Part shown: positions 460 to 40,760 of the stretch, piece by piece | How positions within the stretch are numbered: position 1 is the first letter of the stretch | Layout of the letters: each line of letters begins with the position of its first letter | NCBI GenBank assembly: GCA_013151865.1 | Contig: JAADHN010000081.1 | Span: 1-49,298 of the forward strand | Direction: 5' to 3' | Source: Kiritimatiellota bacterium | Lineage (GTDB): Bacteria > Verrucomicrobiota > Lentisphaeria > Oligosphaerales > JAADHN01 | DNA: 49,298 bases | The notes under the pieces: model-generated | Seen by the model: the letters and a program-made list of their open reading frames with translations, nothing else | Told to the model about the DNA's origin: nothing | The model's database searches: none | Translations under genes and position numbers: made by a program

Positions 460-3400
460 TCAAAGGGCCGGTGTCCGGGAGCGAGGCTGGGGAGCTTCCC
501 AGACTGCTTGGAACAGCGCGGTTTCGAACACACCGCCAGCGCCGTGCGCGAGATCCCCGGCCCGGAAACTCAGGCCATGGTCGGTGGTCAGCAGCAGACC
601 GCGGCCCTGCTCCCGATGTGCGGCAAGCACCGGGGCGATTTCGCGGATACAGAATTCTTCGAGTAGCCCGGGCATTTCCTCGAGTGCGAGTGTACGGCGG
701 TGCGCGCCTTGGTCGAAGAGCGCGACTCGCACCACGGCCGCCCTGCCCGAAGGGGGTTCGGGCAGCATTTCGGCCAAGCCGTGCGCTTCCCGTCCGGAGA
801 CATGGGTGTAGGGCACGTCCCGGGCCGCCAGTGCGTCGACGGGGTCGGCGGAAAGGCCCAGCAATCGGGTCATTGCCTCCACGGTTTCCGGTGCGGCGTC
901 GAGACGTCGCCAGCGCGTTTCGGCGCGGGCGAAGAAGGTCTCTGGGAGGGCGCGGCGCGTTTGGATCCAGACATCCGGGGGCACGCCGTCCATGACGATC
1001 ACGGTCCAGGGCCGGTCCAGGTCGACCGATTCGAGGGCCGGGAGGGCCGCCAACCAGTCCGTTGCGTCTCGGGCCAAGCCTTCGATGCATTGTTGCGTTT
1101 GTTTCTTGAGCGGATCGGTGGCCCAGGAATCCCGCCATACGTCGGCGGCGGCGATCCGGGCTGCGAGTCGGGCGGGGTGGGCGGCATCGAGGCGGTCGGC
1201 GAGCTGCCGGAGGACGGTGAGGCGGCGTTCGACGGCCGCTGCCGTCTTCGGATCGAGGTGGCCGGCCTTTGTCCCGCTGATCGCGGTGGCGGGGGCCCGG
1301 CCTTCCAGGACGCGGCGGGCCAGGACGAGCCAGGCGGCCCGGACCGCCTGAGTGTGCAGGGGTTCCAGTCGGATGAAGCGAACCAGTTTTTCAGGGGCGC
1401 AGTCCTCGAAATGCGGCGCCAGGGCCGCCGCCGGGAAGTCGGTTTCGAGGGCCGCCGCCGCGGCAATGGGATCGGGAAGTCGGGTCGGGGCCGGCACGAG
1501 CCGGGGCAGGGCGTGGCGCCAAAGCAGGGGCCACCAGGACCAGTTCGCCCCGTCGCCCGTTTCAGCCCCGGCGGGATCGAGGACGATCAGGCCGTCTTCG
1601 TCGTCGAGATTCCCGAGCCATTTCTCGATTGCCGCGCGCAGTTGCGCGGGCCGCAGTCGGCGGCCGCCGAGTTCTTCGGCCAGATCGCCGAGGCGTCGGC
1701 GTTGCACGGGGACCGAGCCGTCCAGGGCGCGCGCGACCTGCTCCGCCGTGCCGCGGTCGAGCAGGGCGACCAAGCGCGCCGGCGCACCACCGTGCTGGGC
1801 GTGGAGTTCAGCAAGCAACAGATCGAGGTGTTGTGCGGCTTCGGGCTCCGCTTCCCGCAGGGCGTAAGCCCGGGCCTCGAGCGCCTCGAGTGTCTGCGGA
1901 CTCCGCAACGCGGCCAGGTATTCTTCGAGGGCGGTCTGGATGGTTGCTTCGGGATCGACCCGCTCCGGTTCGTCGGCCGGTTCGGCGCCGATGCGGAATC
2001 CGCAGTCGCACACCGGTCCCCGCAAGAGGGCTTCGGCGAGGTTGCGGCGACAGACTTGGCCGGCGGGCCGGTCCAGTTGCTCGAACAGGCGGTCCAGGCC
2101 CGGCGGCGGGGCGAGTTGGGGAATTCGGGCCAGGCGTCGCAGGACTTCGAGGGCGCGCCGGCCCGGCGCGCTCAGTCGCGGCGGTGCGCGCCGGGCGTAG
2201 AATTGCTTGTGCGCGTCGGCATACACTCGGGCGTATTCTTCCCGGAAGTGTTCGAACACGGCATTGAGTTGACGGCTGTCATCATCGGCCACGACTCGGT
2301 CGGGGTCCCGCAGCAGATTGAGGGCCGTTGCACGGCGTTGGGTCAGTTCGGGTTCCTGTCCGGCCGCGAACTCCACCGCAGGATGGTGCAGGTAATGGTG
2401 CACGAAGACAAAAGCGTCCGCACGGTCGACAAGAAACCGCCGCAGTTGTTTGAGATACGGCAGGACCGACGGCGCGAGCCGGGCGGTCTTCCATGCCCGG
2501 ATGAAACGCCCGAGGCCTTCCCGTGCCGAGTATGAGACCTTGATTTCGTCCGCCAGGGACCGCACGGCCTCGAGCTGTGCCCGAATTTCCCGGATGTCAA
2601 ACTCGGCAAAAGCGGAGAATTCAGCGATACGGTCGAGCTGTCTGTCGACTTCCTCGGTCAGTTCGCCGGCCTGCTTTTTGAAACGTTGGAGGGCCTGCCA
2701 CGTCTCGCGCTGCTGCTTGAGCCCGAAGGGCGCCGCGGCGTCAGTCTCGGTCGTTGCGGGCAACAGAAATGTGCATTCCCGGAGGAGTACATCCCGGTCC
2801 GCGGGGCCGATGATCTCGCCGGGCGTCACGGCGTCGACGGACTCGATGGCCGTGAGGCGGATGAAATCGAGGGGCACGGCACGGCTGCCGCGCAGCAGAG
2901 TCAGGGTCCCGGCGCAGGCCAGTGCGGCGAGGAGGAAATCGGCGGTTTCCCGAGGCAGGCCGAACGGTCCGGTCCGCAAAGCGTGCATTACTTCGGCGAG
3001 CGGCGTGGGGCCGGCGGGCCGGAGCAGGGCGTGGAGGAAGGCGGGCAGCGGATGTCCGACCGGATCGGCCGCGGCCACATAGGCGCCGGAGCGGACCTCG
3101 ACCAGGCCGAGGGGAGCGGCCAACCCTTCGATCAGGCCGGTGAGACCGCGGCGGCGAGCTTGCTGGAGGGAGATCGAGCCGGGCATAACAAATTGTTCGA
3201 GCAGGTTTTCGTACAGTCGTACCGAGGGCACGAGACCGCGCGGGGCCACGGAAGCGAACTTGGGATGGCGTTCTTCGAGGATCGCCGCGGCGGCGATTTC
3301 GACCAGGCGGTCGAAGCGGCGGACCGTACGCACGGCGTCTTCCACGTGGAGATGCGGGCGGCGGAAGTCCCCGGCGTACGCGGCCTGCAGAGCGGCTTCT

Positions 3401-5490
3401 CGTGCGGCGGGCGCCAGTCGCTGGAGCAGTTCGCCCAAGGGGGAGATCAAGGGACGGTCGGCGGGATTGGCGGGATTGAGTTCCTCGCGCAATTGCCGTG
3501 CCGCGAACCAGCGTCGCAACAGGCCGTCCGTGTCTTCCGGCGGAGGGATTTTCCACATTGCGACCGCCGGGTCGGTTGGTTCGAAAGAGGTGTTCCAAAG
3601 AGTCAGGACAAGAGCCAGCTCCACTTCATCGGCCGCAGTGGCGTTTTCGATCCTCCGGCGGACTTCGGGCTCGGCGCCGCGGGGACAGAAGAGCGTCAGG
3701 ACCTTGCGTTGCGAACTCCGCCACGAAACGGTTCGGGTTGCCCCGCAACTCGGTCGAACCAGTTCCGGACCGGGCCATGACAGGCCCGGCCTCAGCTCTT
3801 GGAACGCCGTGGTCAGGGGGCGCGAATCTCCGGGATCGATTTCATCGGCCATTCGCTGGATTCGCGCCTCGAGGGTGTGCCCAACGTCCGCCTGTGCCGC
3901 AACTTCGTACACCGCTTCGGCGGCGGGACCTCCGTGCCCGGATTTTTTGACCAGAAAGCGGCTGTTGGCGGCGATGGGCGCCAGCACGGCTTCGGCCACG
4001 AATTCCGCGTTGAGTTCCGGCTGTCCCGGTTCGAGCACGCATGAAACCATTTCGACCAGGGCCTGGACCGTCGGTGCAGGGGCGGTGGGATGGATACGGT
4101 AGAGGACCAGGATGCGGACCAGGCGTCGTGCCAGAGCGACGTCTTCGGGGTCCTCGAGTCGTTCCGCGGCGACTCGGTCCAGATGGGGGACCACGTGCCG
4201 GGGGAAGGCATTGAAATCCGAGAACTGCATGAGGCGGTGCTCGAAGTGGTCGTAGATACTGTCCGGCGCCAGCAGCACGGTGCAGGGACGGTCGAGGACG
4301 CCGGGGATGTTGCGCTCGGGGTCCCCGGCGATCTGGGCATGGACAAAGTCCACGATACCGCGATGTTCGGAGAAAAGGTCCCCAAGCCCTTCGAGCAGAT
4401 CCAGGGTGCGGGGGTGCATGGGGTAAATGTCTCGGAATCGAGCGAAATCGACCGAAAACGAAGGGAACTGTTCGCGGAAGTAGGCATGGATTTTCCGGAT
4501 GCTGCGGTCGGCGTCGGGCTTATGCTTCACCAGTCGTCGGGAGATCAGGTCGCGGATGTGGAGTGTCGAAAGGGTGAACCGGACCGGGAAGCGATCCTTG
4601 ATTTTGCGGAACGTGGCTTGGGCGATGTCGCCGGTTCGTTCAATGCTTTCCTGCACTGCGGCGACAATCCACAATGGGTGCGTGCCGGCCAGTTCCCCGA
4701 GGAATTGCAGGGTGCGGGCGTCCTCGTTCAATCGCCGGGCGGCGGGCTTGGCCCGGAAGAATTCCGAGAGTTCGTCGACGAGCAGGATGAGACCGTCGAA
4801 CCCGGCGTTTCGGATCGCCTCGAGGACACGCCGAAATGTTTCGTGTCGATCTTCGAGCAATGCGATTCCGGGTTCGGGCAGTCCCAGTTTTCGCAGAAAC
4901 GGCACGCCGGCGGTCCAGGCCTGCCGCGGATGGGCTTCGAGCCAATCGGGCAGGTCGCCCGGAGTGACGCCGATGTGTTTTGCGAACTCCGCGCACAGTT
5001 TGGGGTCCCGGCAGATTTCGCCGAGGTGGGCCACGAATCCGGTGAGGGGTGAAAGGTGGATCCGTGCGCCGTGGCGAGCCAGGGCCTGTTCGACTTCACC
5101 GATCACGATTTGTTCGAGCGGGGTCGATGCCCGGTAATTGACGAGGGAAACGGGCACGGGCAGGAAGCGTTTCCCGCTGTGCTCGAGGCGTGCGAGGCCC
5201 TCGTGCCGTGCGGTCATCCCGTCGCTGCCGGGCGCCCGGTCGGCCCAGGCGGCGAGTGCGGCCAGGAAATGCGACTTGCCCGAGCCGAAGTCGCCCTGGA
5301 GGAAACAGCCCTGCCCGGTGGTCCGGCTCAGGGCGGCGGTCAAGGCGTCCAAGTGGGCCGCGACTTCGCCGGTGAAAACGAATCCGGCGGTGATTTCCCG
5401 GGCGCGGACTCGGCCGTCTTCGAGCCGGATGACGGTTCGGACCGGCGCTAACTCGACCAGGTCGCCGATACGTATTCCGGCAAGTTTCAT
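460..5490 (-). CDS. PglY/DUF6079-type ATPase fused to PglZ-like phosphatase domain
   Basis: 1676 residues. The N-terminus looks like the PglY/DUF6079 ATPases of BREX/Pgl phage resistance: a VELAPVRTVI-type opening, Walker A GDFGSGKS at residues 66-73 and Walker B LILLVDE at 234-240. The middle (about 250-1450) is mostly helical and charged, with one CxC pair (PVCDCG) that may be a remnant zinc site. The last ~183 residues resemble the PglZ alkaline-phosphatase-like domain: IVMDGVPPDVW near 1498-1508 and LLLTTDHG near 1632-1639, supplying Asp and Asp-His metal ligands. In known systems PglY is about 1200-1300 residues and PglZ is a separate protein, so this is an unusual fusion. Its ATG overlaps the stop of the upstream TPR gene (ATGA), implying translational coupling. 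No PglX-type methylase or PglW-type kinase is visible nearby. The ATPase family call is fairly secure; a role in phage defence is inference. Confidence 0.75.
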   Translation of the reverse strand: MKLAGIRIGDLVELAPVRTVIRLEDGRVRAREITAGFVFTGEVAAHLDALTAALSRTTGQGCFLQGDFGSGKSHFLAALAAWADRAPGSDGMTARHEGLARLEHSGKRFLPVPVSLVNYRASTPLEQIVIGEVEQALARHGARIHLSPLTGFVAHLGEICRDPKLCAEFAKHIGVTPGDLPDWLEAHPRQAWTAGVPFLRKLGLPEPGIALLEDRHETFRRVLEAIRNAGFDGLILLVDELSEFFRAKPAARRLNEDARTLQFLGELAGTHPLWIVAAVQESIERTGDIAQATFRKIKDRFPVRFTLSTLHIRDLISRRLVKHKPDADRSIRKIHAYFREQFPSFSVDFARFRDIYPMHPRTLDLLEGLGDLFSEHRGIVDFVHAQIAGDPERNIPGVLDRPCTVLLAPDSIYDHFEHRLMQFSDFNAFPRHVVPHLDRVAAERLEDPEDVALARRLVRILVLYRIHPTAPAPTVQALVEMVSCVLEPGQPELNAEFVAEAVLAPIAANSRFLVKKSGHGGPAAEAVYEVAAQADVGHTLEARIQRMADEIDPGDSRPLTTAFQELRPGLSWPGPELVRPSCGATRTVSWRSSQRKVLTLFCPRGAEPEVRRRIENATAADEVELALVLTLWNTSFEPTDPAVAMWKIPPPEDTDGLLRRWFAARQLREELNPANPADRPLISPLGELLQRLAPAAREAALQAAYAGDFRRPHLHVEDAVRTVRRFDRLVEIAAAAILEERHPKFASVAPRGLVPSVRLYENLLEQFVMPGSISLQQARRRGLTGLIEGLAAPLGLVEVRSGAYVAAADPVGHPLPAFLHALLRPAGPTPLAEVMHALRTGPFGLPRETADFLLAALACAGTLTLLRGSRAVPLDFIRLTAIESVDAVTPGEIIGPADRDVLLRECTFLLPATTETDAAAPFGLKQQRETWQALQRFKKQAGELTEEVDRQLDRIAEFSAFAEFDIREIRAQLEAVRSLADEIKVSYSAREGLGRFIRAWKTARLAPSVLPYLKQLRRFLVDRADAFVFVHHYLHHPAVEFAAGQEPELTQRRATALNLLRDPDRVVADDDSRQLNAVFEHFREEYARVYADAHKQFYARRAPPRLSAPGRRALEVLRRLARIPQLAPPPGLDRLFEQLDRPAGQVCRRNLAEALLRGPVCDCGFRIGAEPADEPERVDPEATIQTALEEYLAALRSPQTLEALEARAYALREAEPEAAQHLDLLLAELHAQHGGAPARLVALLDRGTAEQVARALDGSVPVQRRRLGDLAEELGGRRLRPAQLRAAIEKWLGNLDDEDGLIVLDPAGAETGDGANWSWWPLLWRHALPRLVPAPTRLPDPIAAAAALETDFPAAALAPHFEDCAPEKLVRFIRLEPLHTQAVRAAWLVLARRVLEGRAPATAISGTKAGHLDPKTAAAVERRLTVLRQLADRLDAAHPARLAARIAAADVWRDSWATDPLKKQTQQCIEGLARDATDWLAALPALESVDLDRPWTVIVMDGVPPDVWIQTRRALPETFFARAETRWRRLDAAPETVEAMTRLLGLSADPVDALAARDVPYTHVSGREAHGLAEMLPEPPSGRAAVVRVALFDQGAHRRTLALEEMPGLLEEFCIREIAPVLAAHREQGRGLLLTTDHGLSFRAGDLAHGAGGVFETALFQAVWEAPQPRSRTPAL

Positions 5491-6488
5491 CGTGTTGAAT
5501 CCGGGTCGGCATCGGCGGCGTGCGTGGTTTCGAGGGTCCGCTCCACGCGCCGGATCCAGCCGTACAGGTTTTTTTGTTCCGGGCGTTCGGCCAGGAGCCG
5601 CTGATAGAACTCGAGGGCGCGTTCGAGCCGTCCGGCCCGGCGGCAGGCCGCGGTATAGGCCGAATGCACGTAATGGTCTTTGGGGTTCTGGCGCAGCAGT
5701 TCTTCCATGATCGGGACGGCCTCGAGTTCCCTGCCGTTCTTGGCCAAAGCAAAGGCCTGTCTTCTGCGGAGGCGGGGTGCGTCGGTCTCGTCGGCCACGG
5801 TGTTTTCATAGACTTCGATGGCGCGTTCGTCGCGTCCGGCCCGGCGGCAGAGGGACGCGTATATCTCGCGATAGACTGTGGGGCGACTGGGGATGCGGGC
5901 CAGTCGGCCCATGCGTTTCAATACGGACGGCAGTCCCTCTTGGGCGATTTCGAGGTCGGCGAGGAGCCAGAGTGCCCGGGGCTGGTCCGGGTCGAAGGCC
6001 AGCCAGCGTCGGCAGGCTTCGACGGCTGCTTCGGTCTGTTCGAGTCCGGCCAGGGCATACGCCCGCCACGCGGCCGACTCGCGGGGAGAGAGGTCCCGGC
6101 GCTCGAGGCAATCGAGGAGTTCCTGCCAGTGCCCGAGGCGGTTGAGGCAGCGCAGGACGCCGCGCCCGGCGTATTCGCGAAACCGGGAGTGGCGCTCGAG
6201 TTCGCGAAAATCCTGGAGGGCGGCTTCGTAGTCGTGGTTGGCGTACAAGGCCTGTGCGCGGGCCCGCAAGGCGAAGGTGTTGTCCGGCTCGATTTCGAGC
6301 GCAGTGTCGGCGGCTCGGACAGCTTCACCGGTGCGGTTTGCGCCGGCCAGGGCCAGGGAGAGCTGGGTTTGCCAAAAGGCGTTCGGTCCGGGTGACTCGA
6401 CAGTTTGCTGTTCCGCAAACGCTGCTGCTTCGGCGTAGGCTTTCCGGCGGAGCATTTCCCGGAACGCATTGTATTCCTGGCGGCTCAT
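5487..6488 (-). CDS. tetratricopeptide-repeat protein, partner of the ATPase-PglZ fusion
   Basis: 333 residues made almost wholly of helical pairs with TPR spacing. Clear repeats include ALEIEPDNTFALRARAQALY around residues 83-102, LAFDPDQPRALWLLADLEIA in the middle, and RQNPKDHYVHSAYTAACRRA near 265-284. There is no signal peptide or membrane segment, so it is probably a cytoplasmic scaffold. The gene follows hisG after 71 bp and its stop codon overlaps the start of the downstream ATPase gene by four bases, so the two are probably made in fixed ratio and may form a complex. The Shine-Dalgarno before the ATG is weak, suggesting it depends on transcription and perhaps translation from hisG. 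The exact partner is not known from sequence. Confidence 0.75.
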   Translation of the reverse strand: MSRQEYNAFREMLRRKAYAEAAAFAEQQTVESPGPNAFWQTQLSLALAGANRTGEAVRAADTALEIEPDNTFALRARAQALYANHDYEAALQDFRELERHSRFREYAGRGVLRCLNRLGHWQELLDCLERRDLSPRESAAWRAYALAGLEQTEAAVEACRRWLAFDPDQPRALWLLADLEIAQEGLPSVLKRMGRLARIPSRPTVYREIYASLCRRAGRDERAIEVYENTVADETDAPRLRRRQAFALAKNGRELEAVPIMEELLRQNPKDHYVHSAYTAACRRAGRLERALEFYQRLLAERPEQKNLYGWIRRVERTLETTHAADADPDSTR

Positions 6489-6559: not shown

Positions 6560-7432
6560 TCACTCGACCAGTTTGTTGAGGGCGAATTCGACGATCCCAT
6601 GGGCGCCTGCCGCCAGCAAGTCGGGGATCATGTCCCGGGCCACGTGCTCGTCGATAACCGTGATGAGAGCGTACCAGCCGGTTTCAGCCAGTTGCGACAC
6701 CGTGGGGCGTTGCAGTGCGGGGAGCATGTCGAGGACGGCTTGGAGGTTTTCTTCGCGGACGTTCAGCATGATTCCCACGTTTCGCTCGGCCGCGAGCACC
6801 GATTTCAGGAGGAGTCCGATCCGTTCGAGCTTGTTTCGTTTGAAGGGATCCTCCCAGGCGTCGTGGTTGGCGATGAGGCGCGTGGTGGTGACGCAAACCG
6901 TGTCGACGATCCGTAGTTTGTTGGCGCGCAACGAGGACCCGGTTTCCGTTATTTCGATGATGGCGTCGGCGAGTTTTGGGGGCTTGACTTCCGTGGCGCC
7001 CCAACTGAACTCGACGGCGGCATTGACGCCGTGTTCGGCAAGGTAGCGTCGGGCCAGTCCCACCGCCTCGGTGGCAATCCGCTTGCCCTCGAGGTCCTCG
7101 GCTTTCCGGATCGGGGAGTCCTCGGGCACGGCCAGGACCCAGCGGACAGGGGCGCGCCCGACCTTGCCGTAGACCAGTTCGGCCACTTCTACGACGTCCG
7201 CGCCGCTCTCCAGGATCCAGTCATGTCCGGTGAGTCCGGCATCGAGCACCCCTTCGCCGACGTAGCGGGCCATTTCCTGGGCTCGAATCAGCAGGCACTC
7301 GATTTCCGGGTCGTCGATCGTCGGATAATAGGAGCGGGAACTCACCCGGATGCGCCAGCCGGCCTTGCGGAACATTTCGATGGTGGCGTCTTGCAGGCTG
7401 CCTTTGGGCAGTCCCAAACGAAGTGTGGACAT
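6560..7432 (-). CDS. hisG: ATP phosphoribosyltransferase, long form (HisG)
   Basis: 290 residues, the length of long-form HisG, which works without HisZ. It catalyses the first step of histidine synthesis, ATP plus PRPP to phosphoribosyl-ATP. Family features seen are the opening [14 protein letters not shown], the [10 protein letters not shown] segment, and the PRPP-binding [19 protein letters not shown] region near residues 157-175. The last ~75 residues ([17 protein letters not shown] onward) match the C-terminal ACT-like domain that binds histidine for feedback inhibition. It is preceded by hisI on the same strand, with an inverted repeat in the gap, and followed by the TPR gene. Confidence 0.95.
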
Positions 7433-22597: not shown

Positions 22598-24649
22598 TCA
22601 CGCCACGCCGAAAAGGCGTTTGGCGATCTCGGGCGGGAGTGCCTGGTAGCCGCAGGGGACCATGGTGAACACGCCGCGACCGCCGGTGAGTTTGGGGAGC
22701 GCCTTGCTGAACCCGAACATTTCCGCCAACGGCACTTCGCAGGCGATCCTCTTGCCGGCGCCGGCCGCGGCCATCTCGTGAATCACGGCCCGACGCGGTT
22801 GGAGATAGCCCGTCACTTCACCCACAGCCTCAAGCGGTACGAATACTTCAAGTCGCATCAACGGTTCGAGCACCACGGTCCCGGCCTGAGTGATTGCCTG
22901 GTCCACCGCCGCCAGCGCCGCGCCGATCACGGCCGGTTCGGTGGTCTTGTCGGGCGACACGGCCATGTTCGTGATTTCGGCGGCCACATAAATCAGGGGA
23001 TAGCCGTGCGCGCCACCGGTGCGCAGGCCGTCGGCGAGCGCTTTCTCGGCCGCGGCAATGAATGTTTTGGGGACCGCGAGCTTGCCGGGCAGACATTCGC
23101 TGACCTGGAACGTCTGATCGCCCCGCGGCAGCGGCTGGAACGCGACCGAGAGTTCGGCAAACAGCTCGGTGTCCCCGAAAAGCTTGTGAAATGTTCCGGT
23201 CACGTGGACCGGGCCGCCGAACGTCTCGCGGTAAGCGACCCGCGGTTCACCCGTCCGGGTCTCGACCTTGAGCTTGTTCAGGTTGATCTCGAGGTGCAGC
23301 TCGCCCATGCCGGCCAGCAGGCGCTGACCGGTCTCGGAATCGAACCCGAGTTCCAGGGTCGGATCTTCCCGGCAGAGGAGCTTGAGGGCCTCGTCGAGTC
23401 GTTCTTTGTCTCGACTGTAGCGGGGTTCCACGGCCATGGAGATCACCGGGTCGGGGAAGACGATACGCTCGAACTCCACCCGTCGCGCTCTTTCGCAGAG
23501 CGTATCTCCGGTTTCGCATCCCCGCGGACCGATTACGCCCACGATGTCGCCGGGCCCGACCTTGGGCAGCGGCTGCGTATTCTTGGCGTAAAGGCGCAGG
23601 ATTTGTTTTGCCCGGACTTTTTGCCGGGTCCGGGCATTGACGAGGGTAGCCCCCTCTTTCAGCGTACCGGCATAGGTCCGCACATACAGCAGGTCCGCAC
23701 TGCCCCCGGCGACGAGCTTGAAAATCAGTCCGCCGAAGGGGGCGGACGGGTCCGGGGCGATCATGATCGCGTCCCCGTTGTCGCCGGAGTGGGCCCGCAC
23801 TGCGCCCACGTCGCCGGGCGACGGCAGGTAGTCGATCACCGCGTCCATCAACGGCTGAATACCGATCCGTTTCTTGGCGGTCCCGACCAGGATCGGGACC
23901 AGGCGGCCGGCCCGCGTCTGCTCGCGAATGACGCGCACCAGGAGGGCGGGGGCGATTTCCTCACCTTCGAGAAAGGCCGCGGCAATTTCGTCGGACTCGT
24001 CGGCGAGGCGCTCGATCATCTGTTCTCGCAAGTGGTTCGCCGCGTCTTCGATTTCGGACGGGACCGGTTCGGAAAGCACCTCTTCCCGGTGCTCGCCGGC
24101 AAACGCCAGCACTCGCCAGTGCACCAAGTCCACCAGGCGCTCGAACTCCTGTTCGGCGCCGATGGGCATCTGCACGGGCAGGCCGCAGTCGCCGAACTTC
24201 TCGTTGATCTCGTTCAACACGCGCTCGAACGACGCGCCGATCCGATCCAGTTTGTTGATAAAGGCGATCTTGGCCACATTGTATTTCTCGGCCTGACGCC
24301 AGACTTTTTCACTTTGAGCTTCGACCCCTTCCACCGCACTGAAGATCACTACGGCGCCGTCGATGACCCGGAGCGAGCGCTCGACTTCCGCAGTGAAATC
24401 GATGTGCCCCGGCGTATCGATCAGGTGGATGAGATGGTCGGCCCAGGGGAATGTGGCGGCGGCTGCCGTGATGGTGATCCCGCGCTCGCGTTCTTCCGGC
24501 AGGTAGTCCATGACCGTGGTGCCGTCGTCGATGTTGCCGAACCGATGCGTGCGTCCCGAGTAGAAAAGCATGCCTTCGGTCGTGGTGGTCTTGCCGGCGT
24601 CGATGTGGGCGATGATTCCCACGTTGCGAATGGCGTCGAGTTCCTGCAT
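22598..24649 (-). CDS. elongation factor G-like translational GTPase (EF-G paralogue)
   Basis: 683 residues from the ATG at 24649; the Shine-Dalgarno is weak. GTPase motifs are AHIDAGKTTTTE, RGITITAAA, DTPGHIDF and NKLDR (G1-G4), followed by domains II-V as in EF-G. Domain IV differs from canonical EF-G: the tip region that normally carries HDVDSSE reads NMAVSPDKTTEPAVIG. No rpsL, rpsG or tuf lies beside it. This suits an EF-G2-type paralogue used in ribosome recycling, stress or an unknown role, rather than the main fusA gene, though a main EF-G cannot be ruled out. Confidence 0.85.
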   Translation of the reverse strand: MQELDAIRNVGIIAHIDAGKTTTTEGMLFYSGRTHRFGNIDDGTTVMDYLPEERERGITITAAAATFPWADHLIHLIDTPGHIDFTAEVERSLRVIDGAVVIFSAVEGVEAQSEKVWRQAEKYNVAKIAFINKLDRIGASFERVLNEINEKFGDCGLPVQMPIGAEQEFERLVDLVHWRVLAFAGEHREEVLSEPVPSEIEDAANHLREQMIERLADESDEIAAAFLEGEEIAPALLVRVIREQTRAGRLVPILVGTAKKRIGIQPLMDAVIDYLPSPGDVGAVRAHSGDNGDAIMIAPDPSAPFGGLIFKLVAGGSADLLYVRTYAGTLKEGATLVNARTRQKVRAKQILRLYAKNTQPLPKVGPGDIVGVIGPRGCETGDTLCERARRVEFERIVFPDPVISMAVEPRYSRDKERLDEALKLLCREDPTLELGFDSETGQRLLAGMGELHLEINLNKLKVETRTGEPRVAYRETFGGPVHVTGTFHKLFGDTELFAELSVAFQPLPRGDQTFQVSECLPGKLAVPKTFIAAAEKALADGLRTGGAHGYPLIYVAAEITNMAVSPDKTTEPAVIGAALAAVDQAITQAGTVVLEPLMRLEVFVPLEAVGEVTGYLQPRRAVIHEMAAAGAGKRIACEVPLAEMFGFSKALPKLTGGRGVFTMVPCGYQALPPEIAKRLFGVA

Positions 24650-24851
24650 GGGCCGAGCTTTCGTGTCATTTGGCCGGTGGGACGTTGCCCGCAACACTCG
24701 GAAACACAGAGGCAACGGGCTCTCGGTCGAGTGAGAGTGAGTGTGTACCGTATCCTCACCGGCGGTCGGACACAAGTACGCGGGCGGGAGATCGGCTGGC
24801 GGAGTCGGCGCAGGCCCGGCCGGATCGCGTGCGGGGTGTTGGTCGGGACGT

Positions 24852-24857
24852 TATAGT
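24852..24857 (+). promoter_or_regulatory. candidate -10 box upstream of acylphosphatase
   Basis: TATAGT at 24852-24857 stands in the 309-bp divergent gap between the EF-G paralogue and the acylphosphatase gene, about 100 bases before the latter. It matches five of six -10 consensus positions. No good -35 is seen at the right spacing, so the call is tentative. Nothing else is recognised in this gap. Confidence 0.25.
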
Positions 24858-24958
24858 GGGACAAGTCCCGGCGCGGCGGACGCACGCTTCCAGCGGCCCT
24901 GCCGGGGCAGGAGGTTTCGGTGTGGAGGTCGGGTTCGGTGACGGGAGTGCTGTCGGCA

Positions 24959-25240
24959 ATGGAAATCTCGGCTTGCCGCGTTCGGGTCCAAGGGCGTGTG
25001 ACGGGCGTGGGATTCCGCTTTTCCGCGCTTCGTGAGGCGGGTCGGATCGGGGGGCTGGCCGGGTACGTGCGCAATGTCGATCCTCGTACCGTGGAATGTG
25101 TGGTCCAGGGAGACCCGGAACGGGTGGCGGCCATGGCGGCCTGGCTCCACCGGGGGCCGCCGAGCGCCGTGGTTCTGAACGTCCAGGTGAACGACCTGCC
25201 GGTGTCGCCCGACCTGCCGCCGTTTCGTATCGTGTATTGA
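24959..25240 (+). CDS. acyP: acylphosphatase
   Basis: 93 residues, standard length. It hydrolyses acyl phosphates such as 1,3-bisphosphoglycerate, acetyl phosphate and carbamoyl phosphate. The catalytic Arg is in VQGRVTGVGFRFS and the catalytic Asn in LAGYVRNVD. The ATG at 24959 is used because the family fold begins with CRVRVQG directly after it; GGGAG lies a little far upstream, and an in-frame GTG at 24920 is also open. The gene is divergent from the EF-G paralogue and followed by a 438-bp gap. Confidence 0.93.
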   Translation: MEISACRVRVQGRVTGVGFRFSALREAGRIGGLAGYVRNVDPRTVECVVQGDPERVAAMAAWLHRGPPSAVVLNVQVNDLPVSPDLPPFRIVY

Positions 25241-25678
25241 GCCTGGAGATTGCGATCCGCGGCCGGCGTCTGCTCGACCTCTTTCAACGGGGAGGTGCGC
25301 TGCGACTGCAATACCCCGGGATGCAGACGAATTCTCCGGCCCTGCAAAACATTCCCCGGGTCATCCCGGGACGCCCTGCATGAAGCGGCAGTGGGCGGAT
25401 TCGTGATGCAATCGTGCCGGAGATGTGGTATTGTTCGACCGCGTTGCGCGTCGGGTCGGCGTCGTCCGGAGTACGATCTTGCTGTCAGGCGAGCAAGCTG
25501 TATCCGCTGGTTTGCCTGGGGCAATCCCCGGACAAGATGGACCTCGAAGTGCTGTTCATCGTGATTGGCCGTCACCGTCGAGGGGGCCCATTCTCCAATC
25601 GGTTCGAGTACCACCGTGAGGACGGTCGTTGCTGCTGCGATTCCCGTTCCTCCCGCACGAATTCGGGGCGCGCTGATC
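25241..25678. other. gap before the flippase gene
   Basis: No convincing gene or RNA is seen between the acylphosphatase stop and the chosen flippase start. Part of the right end may code if the flippase begins at an upstream TTG (25565). No terminator hairpin with a T-run was noticed. Confidence 0.4.
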
Positions 25679-27493
25679 GTGTTTTCAAGTCTCCCGCAGA
25701 ACCGGGATCGGACCGGAAAGGCGGCCTCTCGAAGGAGGGTTGCCGCGGCCTTCGAGGTCGGTCGGGCCGAAGTGCAGGCCCTGTTCCGGGAACGCGGCGG
25801 ACGTCGTGCCTGGGGCGCGTTCGTAGTGGGGTCGCCCGTCTTCAATGTTGGGGCGGGCTTGATCTTGGGCGTGGTGCTGTTTGCGGTCTCGGCCAGAGTC
25901 ACCGTGCCCGGGTTCGTCCGGCTTCTGAACGGGTTGGAGGCCTGGCGCCGGCATGTGCCCCCTGCGCTGGCCCCGCTCAGCGCCGCCTTGCGCCGTCTGG
26001 ACGCCGGCCCCGGCGTGTTCCAGGATCACCCGGTCGAGTTTCTGCTCTGCGCCACCGTCATGTTGGCGGCGGGCCTGTTGTTGGCGATCCTGTTCCGTGC
26101 CGCCTTGGTCCGGTGTTTCGGACTCTCCGACCGGTCGGGGACGCTGTGGCGACCCGTCGCCTGGTGTCGGGATGCCGGCCGTCTCTTCGGGCTTTGGGAG
26201 CACTGGGCCGGGGGCCGTGGTTCCCTGCGGCGCAAGACGGTCACCGGGAGTCAGCTCCTGTTGCTTCGCGCCGCGGTCAAGACGGTGTGCGATGCCATCC
26301 GACTCACTGTGTTCGGCTGGGTACTGGTCGCCACGGACTACGGACTTCATGCCCTGGTCATGCTCGTGGTCATGTTGCTGGACAGTTTTTCGGGGCTCGG
26401 GCTCGAGATCATGATCCAACGCGACGGCGACGATGTGATCGAGCGGTTGCCCACTTACTGGAGCATTCAGTTGTTGCGCGGCTGCGCGCTGTTCGGCCTC
26501 GCGTGGGTCGCCGCTCCGCTGGTGGCCGGCTTTTATGCCGCGGAACTGGCCGAAACACGGTATTCGGCGGAATACTTCATTTGGCTGACCCGGGGCGTGG
26601 CCGTGGTCTTCTTGCTGCGGGGCGCCGCCGGGTTCGGACGGGAACTTCGGCAGCGGGAGATGGATTTCCGCGCCGTGATACAGTGGGACATTCTGGCCCA
26701 TGTCCTCTCCCTGGCCGTCGGCTTGGTCGTCCTGTTCTGGATGCGCAACGTGCTCGCACTCGCCGCGTTTTTCGTGGCGAGCGCGCTCGGCCGGTTCGTG
26801 GTGTCTTATACGCTGCATCCGTGGCGGCCGCAGCCGGCGTGGAACGGCTCGGTGGCGCGCCAAGTCTTCATCTTCGCCTCGAGCATCGTGGGGATTACCG
26901 TGCTGAATTCCGTGGCCGGGCGGGTCGATCACGCCACGGTGGGCAAACTGTTGGGCATGGCTGCACTGGGTTTCTACGGCAGGGCCTACGCGCTGGCCGC
27001 CATGCCCAGTCACAACTTTACCAACATCATTGCGCCGATCATGCTGCCCGCTTTGCGGACCGTGCGCGGGGACCTTGGACGCTTCAGGAGAGCGTTTCTC
27101 AAGGCCCTGGCGGTCTACGCGGTCGGCGCCGTGGTCATGGCGGCGGTCTTCGCAGTGGCGGCGCAGCCTTTGGTCAAGTATGTTTTCGGTCAGAATGGAT
27201 ATTGGCTGCCACTGCTGCCGCCCCTGTATATCCTGCTGTTTTTCGGCATATCGAGGGCGGTTGGGTCTTTGACCCCGGCGGCGCTGTTTGTCCTGAACAG
27301 GCCTTGGCTCGTGACCCTTTGCACCGCGGTTTGGGCCGTGGGGGTTTGCGCCGGCGTGGTTCCGTTGACCCGGCGCTTCGGGCTGCCGGGCACGGCCTGG
27401 ACAGTGGTCGTTTCCTCGTTCCTCTCGAACGGCTTGGCCGTGTTTTTCGTCATGCGCCTCACACGGCCCGTCCCGGGCAAGAAGACGGATTGA
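25679..27493 (+). CDS. polysaccharide/lipid-linked oligosaccharide flippase-like membrane protein (MOP family)
   Basis: About 604 residues if GTG 25679 is used; the start is uncertain and a TTG at 25565 would add 38 residues. The protein has about twelve to fourteen hydrophobic segments. The second half has the layout of Wzx/O-antigen flippases: IRLTVFGWVLVATDYGLHAL with DSFSGLGLEIMIQ, then LGMAALGFYGRAYALAAMP followed by NIIAPIMLPAL, the typical 'GxYxxA..l' region, and YILLFFGISRAVGSL near the end. Such proteins flip undecaprenyl-linked sugars across the inner membrane. The N-terminal ~200 residues with two extra helices are longer than usual. No wza/wzc or glycosyltransferase cluster adjoins it. 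Confidence 0.75.
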   Translation: MFSSLPQNRDRTGKAASRRRVAAAFEVGRAEVQALFRERGGRRAWGAFVVGSPVFNVGAGLILGVVLFAVSARVTVPGFVRLLNGLEAWRRHVPPALAPLSAALRRLDAGPGVFQDHPVEFLLCATVMLAAGLLLAILFRAALVRCFGLSDRSGTLWRPVAWCRDAGRLFGLWEHWAGGRGSLRRKTVTGSQLLLLRAAVKTVCDAIRLTVFGWVLVATDYGLHALVMLVVMLLDSFSGLGLEIMIQRDGDDVIERLPTYWSIQLLRGCALFGLAWVAAPLVAGFYAAELAETRYSAEYFIWLTRGVAVVFLLRGAAGFGRELRQREMDFRAVIQWDILAHVLSLAVGLVVLFWMRNVLALAAFFVASALGRFVVSYTLHPWRPQPAWNGSVARQVFIFASSIVGITVLNSVAGRVDHATVGKLLGMAALGFYGRAYALAAMPSHNFTNIIAPIMLPALRTVRGDLGRFRRAFLKALAVYAVGAVVMAAVFAVAAQPLVKYVFGQNGYWLPLLPPLYILLFFGISRAVGSLTPAALFVLNRPWLVTLCTAVWAVGVCAGVVPLTRRFGLPGTAWTVVVSSFLSNGLAVFFVMRLTRPVPGKKTD

Positions 27494-27683
27494 GGCTGTC
27501 GGTGGCTTGAAACTTTTTCGAGAATGTGCGGTCGAATTCGGTGGCCCGGCCGAGAGCCGAGGAGAGGGCCGTGGAGGCGCCGCCGGAGATACCCAGATGT
27601 TTCGCGGAGAGGCCGGATAGTCCGTGACCGGGCGTCCTCTTGCTCCGTGACAGTCCGAGGATCGGGATGACGGAGGGAGTCGA

Positions 27684-28172
27684 ATGAAGAATTTCGAGTG
27701 GCACGACGATCTGGACACCGGCATCGAACTCATCGATGACCAGCACAAGCAGTACGGGCGATTTGCAAACGCATTCTTCAAGCTCTGCTACAATGACCGG
27801 GACCCGCGGCCGGAACTGCGGAAGGCCTTCGACTTCCTCCACGCCTACGCGCGGGAGCATCTGACCACCGAAGAAGCCTTGATGGAGGAATACGACTACC
27901 CACAGCGCGCCGCCCACTTGGAACGACACGATTATCTGCGGAAATGGATCGACGACACCCACGAACGGCTCAAAGAGACGAAACAGCTCTCGGGCGATTT
28001 TCTCATGAAAATCAATTACGTGCTCGTCGAGTGGTTTCAGGAGCACATCCGCGGCATGGATCATCGCCTGACCAGGTACCTCCGCCAGGTTGCCGCGGAA
28101 CGCAACGACTCGAAGTTGCTCCGCATGATCAAGGGTATTTTCTCTGTCGGCGACGACGTTCGGAAAAAGTGA
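27684..28172 (+). CDS. bacteriohemerythrin
   Basis: 162 residues. All seven diiron ligands of hemerythrin are present: His in LIDDQHKQYG, His and Glu in EHLTTEEAL, two His in AHLERHDYL, and His plus Asp in EHIRGMDHRL. It binds O2 reversibly, for oxygen storage, delivery or sensing in a microaerobic cell. There is no fused signalling domain; the C-terminal ~30 residues after the fold are basic. GGAGGG sits just before the ATG. A small hairpin (CCGCA/TGCGG) at 28173-28187 directly follows the stop. Confidence 0.95.
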   Translation: MKNFEWHDDLDTGIELIDDQHKQYGRFANAFFKLCYNDRDPRPELRKAFDFLHAYAREHLTTEEALMEEYDYPQRAAHLERHDYLRKWIDDTHERLKETKQLSGDFLMKINYVLVEWFQEHIRGMDHRLTRYLRQVAAERNDSKLLRMIKGIFSVGDDVRKK

Positions 28173-36786: not shown

Positions 36787-38289
36787 TCAATGCCGGGCGG
36801 CGGGATGCCGGCAGCGCAGCGGCAGGGGAGCGTAGCGCCGGGTCATGCAATCGAGCATGGCGGCGCGCAGGGCGTGCTTCCACTGCCGGGCCTCTTTCCG
36901 GCAAGCCAAATTGACGCATTCGTCAGGGTCGGCCCCGAGGTCGAAGAGGAGTTCGTCGCCGTTTCCAAACCGGGTGTAGGCGTGTTGCACGGTCACGACC
37001 GAGCGGGCTGTAAGTTCCAGATCGGTGTTTCCGTAACTGCCGTACGACTCGACGAGCACGGCCTTGGGGCGGTCCGGATCGGTCCCACCCTCCAGGAGCG
37101 GCCGCAAGCTGCGGCCCTCGATGGGCGGGAATGCCGACGGCCGGTCGCAGGCATAGTCGGCAATCGTGGGGAAGAGATCCAGCAGCGAGACGACCCCCGG
37201 GAATGTTCTCGGGTGCACTTGCGGTCCGGCGACGATCAGGGGGACGCGTCGGCAGGCGTCGAAATGCCAGGCTCCCTTGGTGGGAAAGCCGTGGTCCCCG
37301 AGCATGTCGCCATGGTCGGCGGTGAAGAGCACGAGCGTGTTCCGGGCCAGGCCCGTGTGCTCGAGGAAGTCCAGGAGTCGCCCGACCTGTTCGTCGATGA
37401 ACGCCAGCGAAGCGAGGTAGTACCGACGCATGGTCGCCCAGGCATCTTCCCCGCAGTCGGCGAAACGATGGACGAACGGGAGTCGCGAGAAGCGGGCGGA
37501 CAGTTCGGCCAGGGCCGGGTCGTCTGAGCGGACCCGCCGCGGCACGAGTTCCGGATCGATGAGTTCGAGGAAGCGGGCCGGCGGGTCGTACGGGTCGTGG
37601 GGGTCGACATACGAGACGTTCAGGAAGAAGGGTCGGTCCGAGTCGCGTTCTTCCAGGAACCGGATTGCCCGGTCCGTAATCCAACGGGTTTGGCAAACTT
37701 CTTCGGGAACGACCGAAGGCCAGGTCATGGGCGCGACCGGTCGGGACGGATGTCGTTGTTTGGCCGCAGCCAGGGCCGGACGCAGGTCGATCCCGTCGGG
37801 TCCATATCGGGCGAGGTGGGGCTCGGGCCAGACTGTGGCCAGGGCCTGTTCGTAAGAGTCCGGGTGGCGGACGCGGACCCAATCCAGCCAGTGCCCACAG
37901 CGGATGTCTTCGGTGGTCTCGGCCCGCTCGAAACCATACTTTTCCACGTCGTTGCAGGCGCTCCGGCCATGACACTCGAGATGGAACTTGCCGACTCCCA
38001 GCGTCTGGACTCTGTTTTCGCGCAGGAGGCGGGGAAACGTCGGCATGGCCGGGTCCAATTCGTAGCCGTTGTAAAAGACCCCATGGAGGGGGGCGCTGCG
38101 GCCGGTGAAGATCGTGGCGCGGGCCGGCATACAGACGGGGTGGTTCGAAAAGCACCTCTCGAAACGCACGCCTCGGGCCGCCAGCGCGTCCAGGTTCGGG
38201 GTGTGCGCCGCAAAGGTCCCGTAGCAGCCCAGCCACCGGGCGCTGAGTTGGTCGGCCAGGATCAGGACGATATTATGAGGGGGCGCCAT
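36787..38289 (-). CDS. type I sulfatase (formylglycine-dependent)
   Basis: 500 residues from the ATG at 38289. It begins directly with the sulfatase core IVLILADQLSARWLGCYG, has the modification motif CMPARATIFTGR near residues 53-64 (C-x-P-x-R, Cys converted to formylglycine), metal ligands in LFTADHGDMLGDHG, and TKGAWHFDACRRVPLIVAGP. A signal peptide is not evident, so it may act in the cytoplasm. No anaerobic sulfatase-maturating enzyme gene is in the window. It is the fourth gene of the polysaccharide-directed group and probably removes sulfate esters from glycans or their fragments. Exact sulfatase subfamily unknown. Confidence 0.93.
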   Translation of the reverse strand: MAPPHNIVLILADQLSARWLGCYGTFAAHTPNLDALAARGVRFERCFSNHPVCMPARATIFTGRSAPLHGVFYNGYELDPAMPTFPRLLRENRVQTLGVGKFHLECHGRSACNDVEKYGFERAETTEDIRCGHWLDWVRVRHPDSYEQALATVWPEPHLARYGPDGIDLRPALAAAKQRHPSRPVAPMTWPSVVPEEVCQTRWITDRAIRFLEERDSDRPFFLNVSYVDPHDPYDPPARFLELIDPELVPRRVRSDDPALAELSARFSRLPFVHRFADCGEDAWATMRRYYLASLAFIDEQVGRLLDFLEHTGLARNTLVLFTADHGDMLGDHGFPTKGAWHFDACRRVPLIVAGPQVHPRTFPGVVSLLDLFPTIADYACDRPSAFPPIEGRSLRPLLEGGTDPDRPKAVLVESYGSYGNTDLELTARSVVTVQHAYTRFGNGDELLFDLGADPDECVNLACRKEARQWKHALRAAMLDCMTRRYAPLPLRCRHPAARH

Positions 38290-38330
38290 GTTTCGTTTCG
38301 GGGCCCTTTTCTTTGCCGGGACACGGACCT

Positions 38331-40484
38331 TCAGAAGATGCCTTTTACCACGCGTACCAGGGTAACGGTGAGGTCCCCCGGGCCTGCGGTTTCGACGCGG
38401 AAGTCCATTTCGCGACCGCGGAGGACGGCGTTGCGCGGGAGTTGGCGGACCTCGATGTTGCGAAAGTACGACTTCCCGGCGAGGCCGGGTGCATAATTGC
38501 CCCGGCCCTGACCGAAGAGTTGGAGTCTGACCATGCCGTCTTTTTCCGGCGTGAAGATGCCGGAGAGGGTTTCCCATTTGCCGTGCGTTCGCGCTTTCAG
38601 GTAAAGCATCGTGGACCAGTCCATGCGCGCAATACGTGCGGCGGGGCGGAGTTTCACGCCGTCGTTGCGGATTTGAACCTTCAATTGGTACGGGATTCCG
38701 CCCTGCAGCCGCAGCAGTTGGTCCATATGCACGGTGTCGTCGAATCGTTTGTACGTGAACTCGACCCTGCGCCGATCGGTTTGTTCCGGATCGGGGATGA
38801 TGCGGTAAATCGCGGGAAGTTGCCACGGTCCTGCGTCACCGGCCAGTTGCGCGTTTTTCACCAGATTCGGCGGGTCTTCCGGCAGTGCATTCGCCCATTT
38901 ACGGAATGCGGGGTCGTTTGGAAAGCGGCCGAGTGCGGCGAGAGAATCGATGTGAAACGTGGCCGTCTTCCGTTGGCCGTCGCCGGTATTCTGTACGGAG
39001 GCGGTGTTGGTGAGCCGGCCCTGTCGGTCGGTATAACGAATCCACCAGCGGACCGCGGCGCGGTCGGTGTATGTGACTTTGACGGTAGCGGGGCCCGGTC
39101 GACTCCAAAAGACCCGGTCGAGTCGGAACAGGATACCGGTCTGGCCGTCGGCGGCGTCCGTTCGTCGGGCGTCGAAGTCGTAGTGCCGGGTCTTGGGATC
39201 GGCGGGAATGGGGTATCGGTCGATCCGTTCGGCGGGAATCGTTCGACTCCCCGGCTGATCGCGTTGTACAAGCCAGCGTTCGATGTTGCGGACGATGTGA
39301 CGCCGGACGGCGCATTCCCGCAGGTAGGCCCAGGCGTCGGGCGAATCGTCGCGCCGGTATCCCTGGGCGACGCGTGCATACTCGTTGAGTGCGGGGTTGA
39401 GCTTGAGCGTGGCGGGGCTGACGTACTGGAAGTTTTGCCGCATCTGCAATCCCCGAAGCGTGGAGATTCGATGTCGGTAAGGGTAGCCCTCGACGGGGCC
39501 GAAACGCCACACCCAATACTTTCCGTATTCCTCGTTTTCATCGCCGCGGAACCGCCGCTCGCGGATCACGGGGTGGTCGTCGTCCACAATGCAATAGCCG
39601 TCGGGGGTGAGGCGGGACGCCCAACCGGGGCTGTCGAAGAGGCCGTGCATGAAGTCGATGCCGCCGCCCCGGATGCCCGTTCCTTTGGAAAAGGCATAGT
39701 CGACGAGTCCCGCAGTGGCCTCTCGGAATTCGACGGTCGGGCCGATGGGGCCTGCGAACATGAGAGCCAGTTTGTACTCGACGCCCTTGAAGGCCTCGCA
39801 CATGGCGTCAATGCGGTGCTTGAGCCAGTCTGCGAATTGCTTGGCCGTCAGGCCCGTCGTTTCCTGCCACATCTTCAAATCCACGCGCCGAATGAACATC
39901 TCCTCACCGCGCGAGGCGCTGATGCCGTGAATGTAACCGTAGACGACGTCCTTACGCCGCGCAATGCCGCGCCGGCCGAACTCGCGGAGGAATTCGTGGA
40001 AGGCGCGGTCCACGTTGGGCTGCCAGGGCAAGACGTTCCGAATGCGCCAGGGCTGATTCTCCTGTAGCGGCGGCACGTCGACCACCACGGGTCGAAACCT
40101 GTCGATCACCCAGTCCGGCACGGCCGTGCGTTCCACACCCTTGAGATGAATGCCGGACCGCACGCCCATCGCGGCGTTCTTGCTCAATTGCCTCTCGATC
40201 CACTCCCAGTTGTAGACCCCCGGCGCAGGATTGAGGCGTTTCCACGTGGCCTGGATACCGCATACGGAGATGGCCGGATCGAACCGACGTCCCCAACTGA
40301 CGAAGCCCGAGTAGGGGGCCGGTTTCAGGCCGGCCGGCAGCGTCCAGTCCCAGCCCGGGCGGACGACAGGCTGCCGCTCCCCCGCCCGGGGAACGAGAGG
40401 CACGGCGGAGACGCCGGCCAGGGCTGCCGCGAGAACCCAGTTCCCGGCTTTGTTTCCGAGGTCCCGCCGACCGACATTTTTCAC
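38331..40484 (-). CDS. secreted glycoside hydrolase-like (beta-alpha barrel) protein
   Basis: 717 residues from GTG 40484, with AAGGAAA seven bases upstream. A signal-like segment (NWVLAAALAGVSAVPLVP) follows a short basic tail. The next part resembles the GH42-type barrel opening: ATWKRLNPAPGVYNWEWIER and a beta strand per repeat (GVRSGIHLKGV, VVYGYIHGISASRGEE, YKLALMFAGPIGP). The last ~200 residues (VKNAQLAGDAGPWQLPAIYR onward to FRVETAGPGDLTVTLV) look like a carbohydrate-binding beta sandwich. Catalytic glutamates could not be assigned with confidence. It stops 41 bp before the sulfatase start, so the two are probably co-transcribed. Confidence 0.65.
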   Translation of the reverse strand: MKNVGRRDLGNKAGNWVLAAALAGVSAVPLVPRAGERQPVVRPGWDWTLPAGLKPAPYSGFVSWGRRFDPAISVCGIQATWKRLNPAPGVYNWEWIERQLSKNAAMGVRSGIHLKGVERTAVPDWVIDRFRPVVVDVPPLQENQPWRIRNVLPWQPNVDRAFHEFLREFGRRGIARRKDVVYGYIHGISASRGEEMFIRRVDLKMWQETTGLTAKQFADWLKHRIDAMCEAFKGVEYKLALMFAGPIGPTVEFREATAGLVDYAFSKGTGIRGGGIDFMHGLFDSPGWASRLTPDGYCIVDDDHPVIRERRFRGDENEEYGKYWVWRFGPVEGYPYRHRISTLRGLQMRQNFQYVSPATLKLNPALNEYARVAQGYRRDDSPDAWAYLRECAVRRHIVRNIERWLVQRDQPGSRTIPAERIDRYPIPADPKTRHYDFDARRTDAADGQTGILFRLDRVFWSRPGPATVKVTYTDRAAVRWWIRYTDRQGRLTNTASVQNTGDGQRKTATFHIDSLAALGRFPNDPAFRKWANALPEDPPNLVKNAQLAGDAGPWQLPAIYRIIPDPEQTDRRRVEFTYKRFDDTVHMDQLLRLQGGIPYQLKVQIRNDGVKLRPAARIARMDWSTMLYLKARTHGKWETLSGIFTPEKDGMVRLQLFGQGRGNYAPGLAGKSYFRNIEVRQLPRNAVLRGREMDFRVETAGPGDLTVTLVRVVKGIF

Positions 40485-40760
40485 TTTGGTTTCCTTGCTG
40501 TGGGCCGTCCGGGGTGCGCACGGCGATCCGTGGGCTCGTGATCCTGAACCGGGCCGACATCGGCGACTCCCGGCGGAATGGGCCCGCGGCCGTCCGCTCC
40601 CGCACCGCCTCAAGACCGGCCCCGATTTCAGACTTCCTTACCCGGTGGGCTCAAATCGAGTTTTCGAGACGTCGCCGCAATTCTCGCCGGGCGAGGAAGT
40701 CTGATTTGGGCGTTTTCGAATTGTTGAGGGCGCGCGTGCAGCAGCTCGTCGGCCCCAGAC

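Follow-up and report, generated by a model that had tools for sequence, protein, structure and literature searches.

A TPR protein coupled to a fused BrxC-like ATPase and PglZ-domain protein: a putative methylation-free relative of the BREX core

How bacteriophage exclusion (BREX) systems turn the activities of an ATPase and of PglZ into phage exclusion is still unresolved; at the locus considered here, both activities would be joined in one polypeptide. The locus is found on contig JAADHN010000081.1 of a Kiritimatiellota bacterium (assembly GCA_013151865.1). The window, i.e., the whole stretch of DNA that was analyzed, is this entire contig (G000:C54; 49,298 bp), which is part of a genome of 6.2 Mb. 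It encodes a tetratricopeptide repeat (TPR) protein and, coupled to it, an AAA+ ATPase that is fused to a PglZ-type domain. The original prediction, derived from the sequence, had left the choice between a reduced BREX-like defence unit and a domesticated ATPase-phosphatase machine with a housekeeping role. According to the present analysis, the pair would be a compact relative of the BREX core that does without methylation, and in which an ATP-gated, DNA-bound phosphodiesterase with a TPR adaptor serves as a stable chromosomal machine for DNA processing or genome surveillance; taken as a whole, this reading is given a chance just short of even. The features of the pair are the following:

460-5490, minus strand: fused BrxC-like AAA+ ATPase/PglZ-domain protein, 1676 amino acids (Pfam, PADLOC, profile search, structure comparison)
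5487-6488, minus strand: TPR partner protein, 333 amino acids, translationally coupled via ATGA (Pfam; conserved adjacency)
4231-5490, minus strand: N-terminal AAA+ ATPase domain of the ORC/Cdc6 type, approximately residues 1-420 (DUF6079 match; model matches BrxC, then ORC/Cdc6)
5272-5295, minus strand: Walker A motif GDFGSGKS, residues 66-73 (K72 and S73 in all 26 rows that cover this site)
4771-4791, minus strand: Walker B motif LILLVDE, residues 234-240 (D239 and E240 in 27 of 27)
2002-2052, minus strand: C-x13-C-x-C motif (C1147, C1161, C1163), a family signature (alignment)
463-1020, minus strand: PglZ-type domain of the alkaline-phosphatase superfamily, residues 1491-1676 (structure comparison, profile alignment, invariant ligands)

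The ATPase half of the fusion protein is a relative of BrxC by sequence and by fold. The Pfam family DUF6079 (PF19557), which is assigned to BrxC in a January 2026 survey (PMC12839542), matches the 1676-residue protein with an E-value of 6e-32 and 110.5 bits, above the curated 23-bit cut-off. PADLOC returns BrxC as well (7e-25; best model PDLC02482), and the NCBIfam model BREX_BrxC gives 66.6 bits, which is below its curated cut-off of 400. A profile of 25 relatives matches the solved BrxC 9zdx at 1.6e-14, and in the AlphaFold2 model of residues 1-950 (predicted local distance difference test, pLDDT, 85) the four best matches in the PDB are BrxC chains (9zll/9zdx; E-values from 1e-10 to 3e-9; TM-scores on the target of 0.60-0.67), with ORC/Cdc6 next in the list. 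K72, D239, and E240 are invariant across the aligned relatives. The ATPase that had been predicted to be of the DUF6079/PglY type is thus a BrxC relative by profile and fold. The fusion proteins come together in a single clade of the AAA+ tree with a support of 86/90, which is not decisive, and a branch supported at 99/99 parts them from the 15 canonical BrxC proteins of the carrier genomes; some members of the group next to the fusion clade are BrxCs from Type-3 loci, which also encode BrxF and PglXI.

The PglZ-like motifs that had been noted in the same frame (IVMDGVPPDVW from about residue 1498 and LLLTTDHG at about residues 1632-1639) are, like both Walker motifs, present where they had been placed. 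The Pfam PglZ profile (PF08665) has no match in the fusion protein or in the window genome, and a sequence profile of the C-terminus yielded no PglZ match in the PDB, so that the fold had to be predicted. Residues 1180-1676 were modelled with a pLDDT of 87, mostly above 90 across the last 190 residues. PorX, a response regulator with a PglZ domain, takes up the first 17 places among the PDB matches of this model (best E-value 3.4e-6, probability 1.0), and match number 18 is the BREX BrxC-BrxB:PglZ complex. TM-scores for the multi-domain chain as a whole are low, at 0.24-0.29, and the assignment is therefore based on the E-values, on the probability of 1.0, and on the ranking of PglZ proteins above all other folds of the alkaline-phosphatase superfamily in the match list. 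The predicted PglZ-like C-terminus was therefore recovered by the fold search, albeit not by PF08665. In a profile alignment to twelve PglZ proteins of the carrier genomes, the D, T, D..H, and TDHG motifs are in register; the E-value of 2e-10 stems from a comparison of two profiles and is not a database E-value. The active-site residues D1501, T1536, D1593, H1597, D1637, H1638, and H1649 do not vary among the 26 rows whose C-terminus is intact. In PglZ of E. fergusonii, where T538 and H741 correspond to T272 and H500 of PorX, the exchange T538A abolishes the nuclease activity as well as oligonucleotide cleavage, and H741A alters cleavage (PMC12205998). To judge from the order of the motifs, these residues probably correspond to T1536 and H1649 of the window fusion protein. 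On the basis of the model, the last approximately 185 residues adopt a PglZ phosphodiesterase-type fold, which retains the catalytic Thr and the full set of metal ligands; as had been proposed, ATPase and PglZ are found in one fused chain, with the BrxC fold N-terminally and the PglZ fold C-terminally located.

Relatives were not found when contigs were scanned with the window fusion protein alone; a scan with a three-sequence alignment succeeded. It recovered at least 38 related loci (L032-L069; 37-61% identity, mostly full-length), the number being a lower bound because two exact peptide patterns were used. The carriers belong to at least five phyla, namely, the Desulfobacterota, Spirochaetota, Fibrobacterota, Lentisphaerae/Verrucomicrobia, and Planctomycetota, and those closest to the window copy are Lentisphaerae metagenome-assembled genomes (L038, i.e., G377, and L051, i.e., G389). 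L049 and L069 share one genome, as do L053 and L057, which are the two TPR-fusion pairs (on C102 and C145, respectively) of the Spirochaetales genome G425.

In this family, the TPR gene is an obligate partner of the fusion. In 34 of the 36 testable loci, it immediately precedes the fusion gene in the same orientation, two further loci starting at a contig edge, and it was found in all 27 genomes searched, usually as a single copy; its predicted conservation beside the ATPase was hence confirmed. The coupling also holds, with the TPR stop and the ATPase start sharing the ATGA in an overlap of 4 nt, which recurs in 17 of the 27 loci with both frames resolved. The distances among TPR proteins correlate with those among the ATPases (Mantel r=0.88, 24 pairs, 0/2000 permutations), and the TPR protein contains the strongly conserved stretch RxGRLARIPSRPxVYREIYASLCRR. 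Two loci, L042 and L045 (genomes G419 and G421), were considered to be partnerless, which was rejected because the TPR gene is retained on other contigs of the same genomes (L074 and L073, respectively), beside unrelated genes. Likewise, the conserved adjacency and the presence in all searched genomes led to rejection of the TPR gene as an arbitrary neighbour.

Within the PglZ domain, the G377 copy diverges right after DGVSPDVWLAA (L030:1464-1540), and what is left of the domain begins at the extreme end of a different contig (L031:3320-3781). The contig with the locus L037, from a near-identical strain, breaks off at roughly this point as well. Either a misassembly or a real rearrangement would account for the break; a truncated form was not adopted in view of the remainder on the other contig and the end of L037.

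Four deeper relatives (G565, G815, G853, and G719) are fusions of 1714-1766 residues with canonical PglZ motifs, e.g., VDAMRWD...TSDHGFVE...HGG; a TPR gene precedes every one of them in the same orientation. Two of the genomes, G853 and G719, belong to the Desulfobacterales: in G853 (L077), TPR gene, RecQ helicase gene, and fusion form a same-strand cluster, the RecQ being confirmed by Pfam, and in G719 (L078) a frame of homologous length occupies the RecQ position between TPR gene and fusion. The deep spirochaete fusion of G565 and its TPR gene (L072, G565:C85:1-14000) are close to fliG. A further trait of the family is the C-x13-C-x-C motif, which occurs, always with the same spacing, in each of the 27 proteins of the main clade and in the four deep relatives alike; the canonical BrxC frames examined from carrier genomes lack it. 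It is a possible metal site; we know of no description of such a motif. That the protein would be a DUF6079 ATPase with an unrelated C-terminal domain beside an arbitrary TPR gene, the motifs being coincidental, would agree with the missing PF08665 match in fusion protein and genome, but is contradicted by the structure comparison, the in-register alignment to PglZ proteins, the textbook PglZ motifs of the deep relatives, and the TPR gene in 27 of 27 genomes, which make it most improbable.

The pair is rare, occurring in 0.5–5% of genomes. In the phylum of the window, 2 of 388 genomes carry it (the window's own and G377), with weak matches to the ATPase region in 17 others; among near relatives of the window genome, the count is 3 of 60, the window genome included. 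Three of 247 Spirochaetota genomes, one of them with a deep relative, and 10 of 194 Desulfobacterales genomes, three of them of the deep type, are carriers. Such a patchy distribution and rarity, together with BREX ancestry, the grouping of the ATPase with the Type-3 BREX BrxC lineage, and the presence of both conserved BREX core domains in intact form, would suit a minimal methyltransferase-free BREX-like system against phages or plasmids, in which the TPR protein senses the invader, the AAA+ domain assembles on the invading DNA, and the fused PglZ introduces nicks into this DNA or prevents its replication. The inheritance pattern speaks against this. The fusion gene tree has 6 phylum changes, 6 being the minimum possible, and is thus phylum-congruent, although its Desulfobacterota group is weakly supported (62/65), whereas the canonical BrxC proteins of the same genomes, in a control tree of 16 rows only, have their phyla mixed with full support, e.g., a Fibrobacterota protein being sister to a Desulfobacterota one. 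From these sequence comparisons, the pair appears to be inherited within phyla rather than traded between species. No match was found in 50,697 phage records, and plasmids contain no full-length copy, only partial BrxC-like matches with 24-28% identity that cover at most 24% of the protein. Nor is a self/non-self marking enzyme found beside the pair. Overall, the defence alternative is deemed possible, yet clearly weaker than an even bet. The pair as a remnant needing BREX in trans was rejected, since canonical BrxC occurs in only 9 of 31 carrier genomes and a PF08665 PglZ in 17 of 28.

The genomic surroundings of the pair bear on the same question. In the window, the pair stops 460 bp short of the contig end, and its upstream neighbour is the following:

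6560-7432, minus strand: hisG, separated from the TPR start by the predicted gap of 71 bp

The other annotated neighbours are ordinary as well, namely, amine oxidase, RNase Y, 5-formyltetrahydrofolate cyclo-ligase, aldolase, 5'-nucleotidase, a PHP/polymerase-X protein, elongation factor G, a fumarate-reductase-type flavoprotein, and a CNNM/CorC transporter. This annotation covers part of the window's open reading frames, several being without Pfam match or outside the scan; among them are a 1811-amino-acid frame without annotation (40761-46196, minus strand) and two large frames without Pfam match at 1e-5 (24421-27781 and 36923-40613, both minus strand). The scanned window neighbours include no methylase, as had been noted before, and no BREX methyltransferase (PglX/BrxX) was seen among the recurrent or Pfam-scanned neighbours of the relatives. 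On another contig of the window genome, a frame of 1361 residues (G000:C31:61256-62620) has a weak 63-bit match to the PglX model and is likely another restriction-type methyltransferase.

Beside the fusion, no gene except the TPR partner recurs throughout, and most neighbours at the related loci are unrelated metabolic genes. The exceptions are RecD2 directly downstream in four Spirochaetota loci, RNase D/HRDC beside the pair in four Desulfobacterota loci, and an SNF2 helicase upstream in L036, L054, and L069, with a weak fourth case in L044, which spans two phyla. The RecD2 and RNase D cases, each confined to one phylum, probably reflect shared descent. A PADLOC scan of 116 neighbours, in which 25 families are listed and 33 further families were matched by at most two members each, revealed no defence-island setting among the 25 families listed, all of which fit such RecD/SNF2 helicases; the absence of any other recurrent defence family in this list is a further point against a defence role, and the placement of the pair outside a defence island is thereby supported. 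BrxA- or BrxB-like genes were not recognized in the neighbour scans, remote folds not having been searched by structure, and HerA/FtsK is neither a recurrent neighbour nor found among the Pfam-scanned neighbours.

How, then, would the chain work? Its AAA+ domain would bind ATP and probably DNA, and is followed by a long middle region with the three-cysteine motif and by the C-terminal PglZ, a putative metal-dependent phosphodiesterase. By binding and hydrolysing ATP, the protein, as a dimer or ring, would position the active site of PglZ on a substrate of DNA (or oligonucleotide), or license it to act there. In BREX, BrxB bridges BrxC and PglZ. With BrxC and PglZ covalently fused, such a bridge would not be needed, which makes the TPR protein the natural candidate for an adaptor, sensor, or regulator in place of BrxB. 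Both folds, the intact residues of the active sites, the obligate pairing, and the pattern of inheritance are established computationally; DNA as the substrate, ATP gating, the function of the TPR protein, and the cellular role are what we infer. PorX hydrolyses cyclic or linear oligonucleotides, and the pair might by analogy be a nucleotide-signalling device, its PglZ domain acting on such molecules under the control of ATPase and TPR protein. However, no cyclase recurs beside the pair, a Pfam scan detected no receiver domain in the fusion protein, and the ATPase half is most like DNA-associated BrxC/ORC proteins, which renders this alternative improbable.

As to the cellular role, genome maintenance or surveillance is favoured on account of stable inheritance, ordinary neighbourhoods, and helicase associations, and is put at roughly even chances. 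The domesticated machine is somewhat favoured over the reduced BREX-like defence unit by the phylum-congruent inheritance, by the ordinary neighbours, and by the fact that most genomes have a single copy. Several points weigh against the maintenance role: patchy presence is the pattern of an accessory defence system; helicases are neighbours of the pair at a minority of loci, in part owing to shared descent; the control tree is small; and phylum congruence could also follow from a single old transfer into each phylum. A more far-reaching and more tentative proposal is that of an old, vertically inherited TPR plus BrxC-PglZ machine that existed in several phyla before or beside the mobile BREX radiation and serves genome maintenance together with helicases. 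If this were true, BREX and a housekeeping machine would have a core in common, or this core would have been domesticated from defence; either way, a maintenance machine would bear on the origin of BREX and would offer a two-protein system for the direct study of the BrxC/PglZ mechanism.

Comparison with known systems places the pair close to BREX, albeit outside of it. Type-3 BREX BrxC has a homologous AAA+ ATPase, the nearest sampled group including BrxCs beside BrxF and PglXI, and PDLC02482 is the best PADLOC model for both that BrxC and the window fusion. In contrast to this BrxC of about 1250 amino acids, the fusion proteins comprise about 1650-1780 amino acids, are joined to PglZ, and carry C-x13-C-x-C; no BrxF, PglXI, BrxHII, or BrxA was recognized alongside. 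With the PglZ of BREX and PorX, the C-terminus shares a common fold and the same set of active-site residues, but it consists of a compact phosphatase core with a helical lead-in only, is covalently joined to an ATPase, and has diverged below detection by PF08665; PorX, moreover, has its receiver domain N-terminally, for which there is no counterpart in the Pfam scan of the fusion protein. BREX-Related Capture (BRC; PMC12839542) is similar in that a DUF6079 ATPase is combined with PglZ and a BREX methyltransferase is missing. BRC keeps these as separate proteins, however, universally with a HerA/FtsK translocase, which does not recur at the fusion loci, and has STAND and DUF4007 proteins, neither of which recurs there. 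The main text of that survey mentions no TPR protein, and those of its passages on fusions that the comparison covered describe no BrxC-PglZ fusion; a search of the open-access literature on PglZ with DUF6079, TPR, or fusion likewise found no description of the architecture, the supplements of the survey and most subscription papers and preprints being outside this scope. BrxA- and BrxB-like components are called universal in BREX in the same source (PMC12839542). The locus yielded neither a methyltransferase nor a recognizable BrxA- or BrxB-like gene, and the pair is hence not a BREX system by membership; it is a variant of the BREX BrxC/PglZ core. With two core activities in one chain, a single partner, and no methylation arm, it would be a much simpler machine for testing whether ATP gates PglZ.
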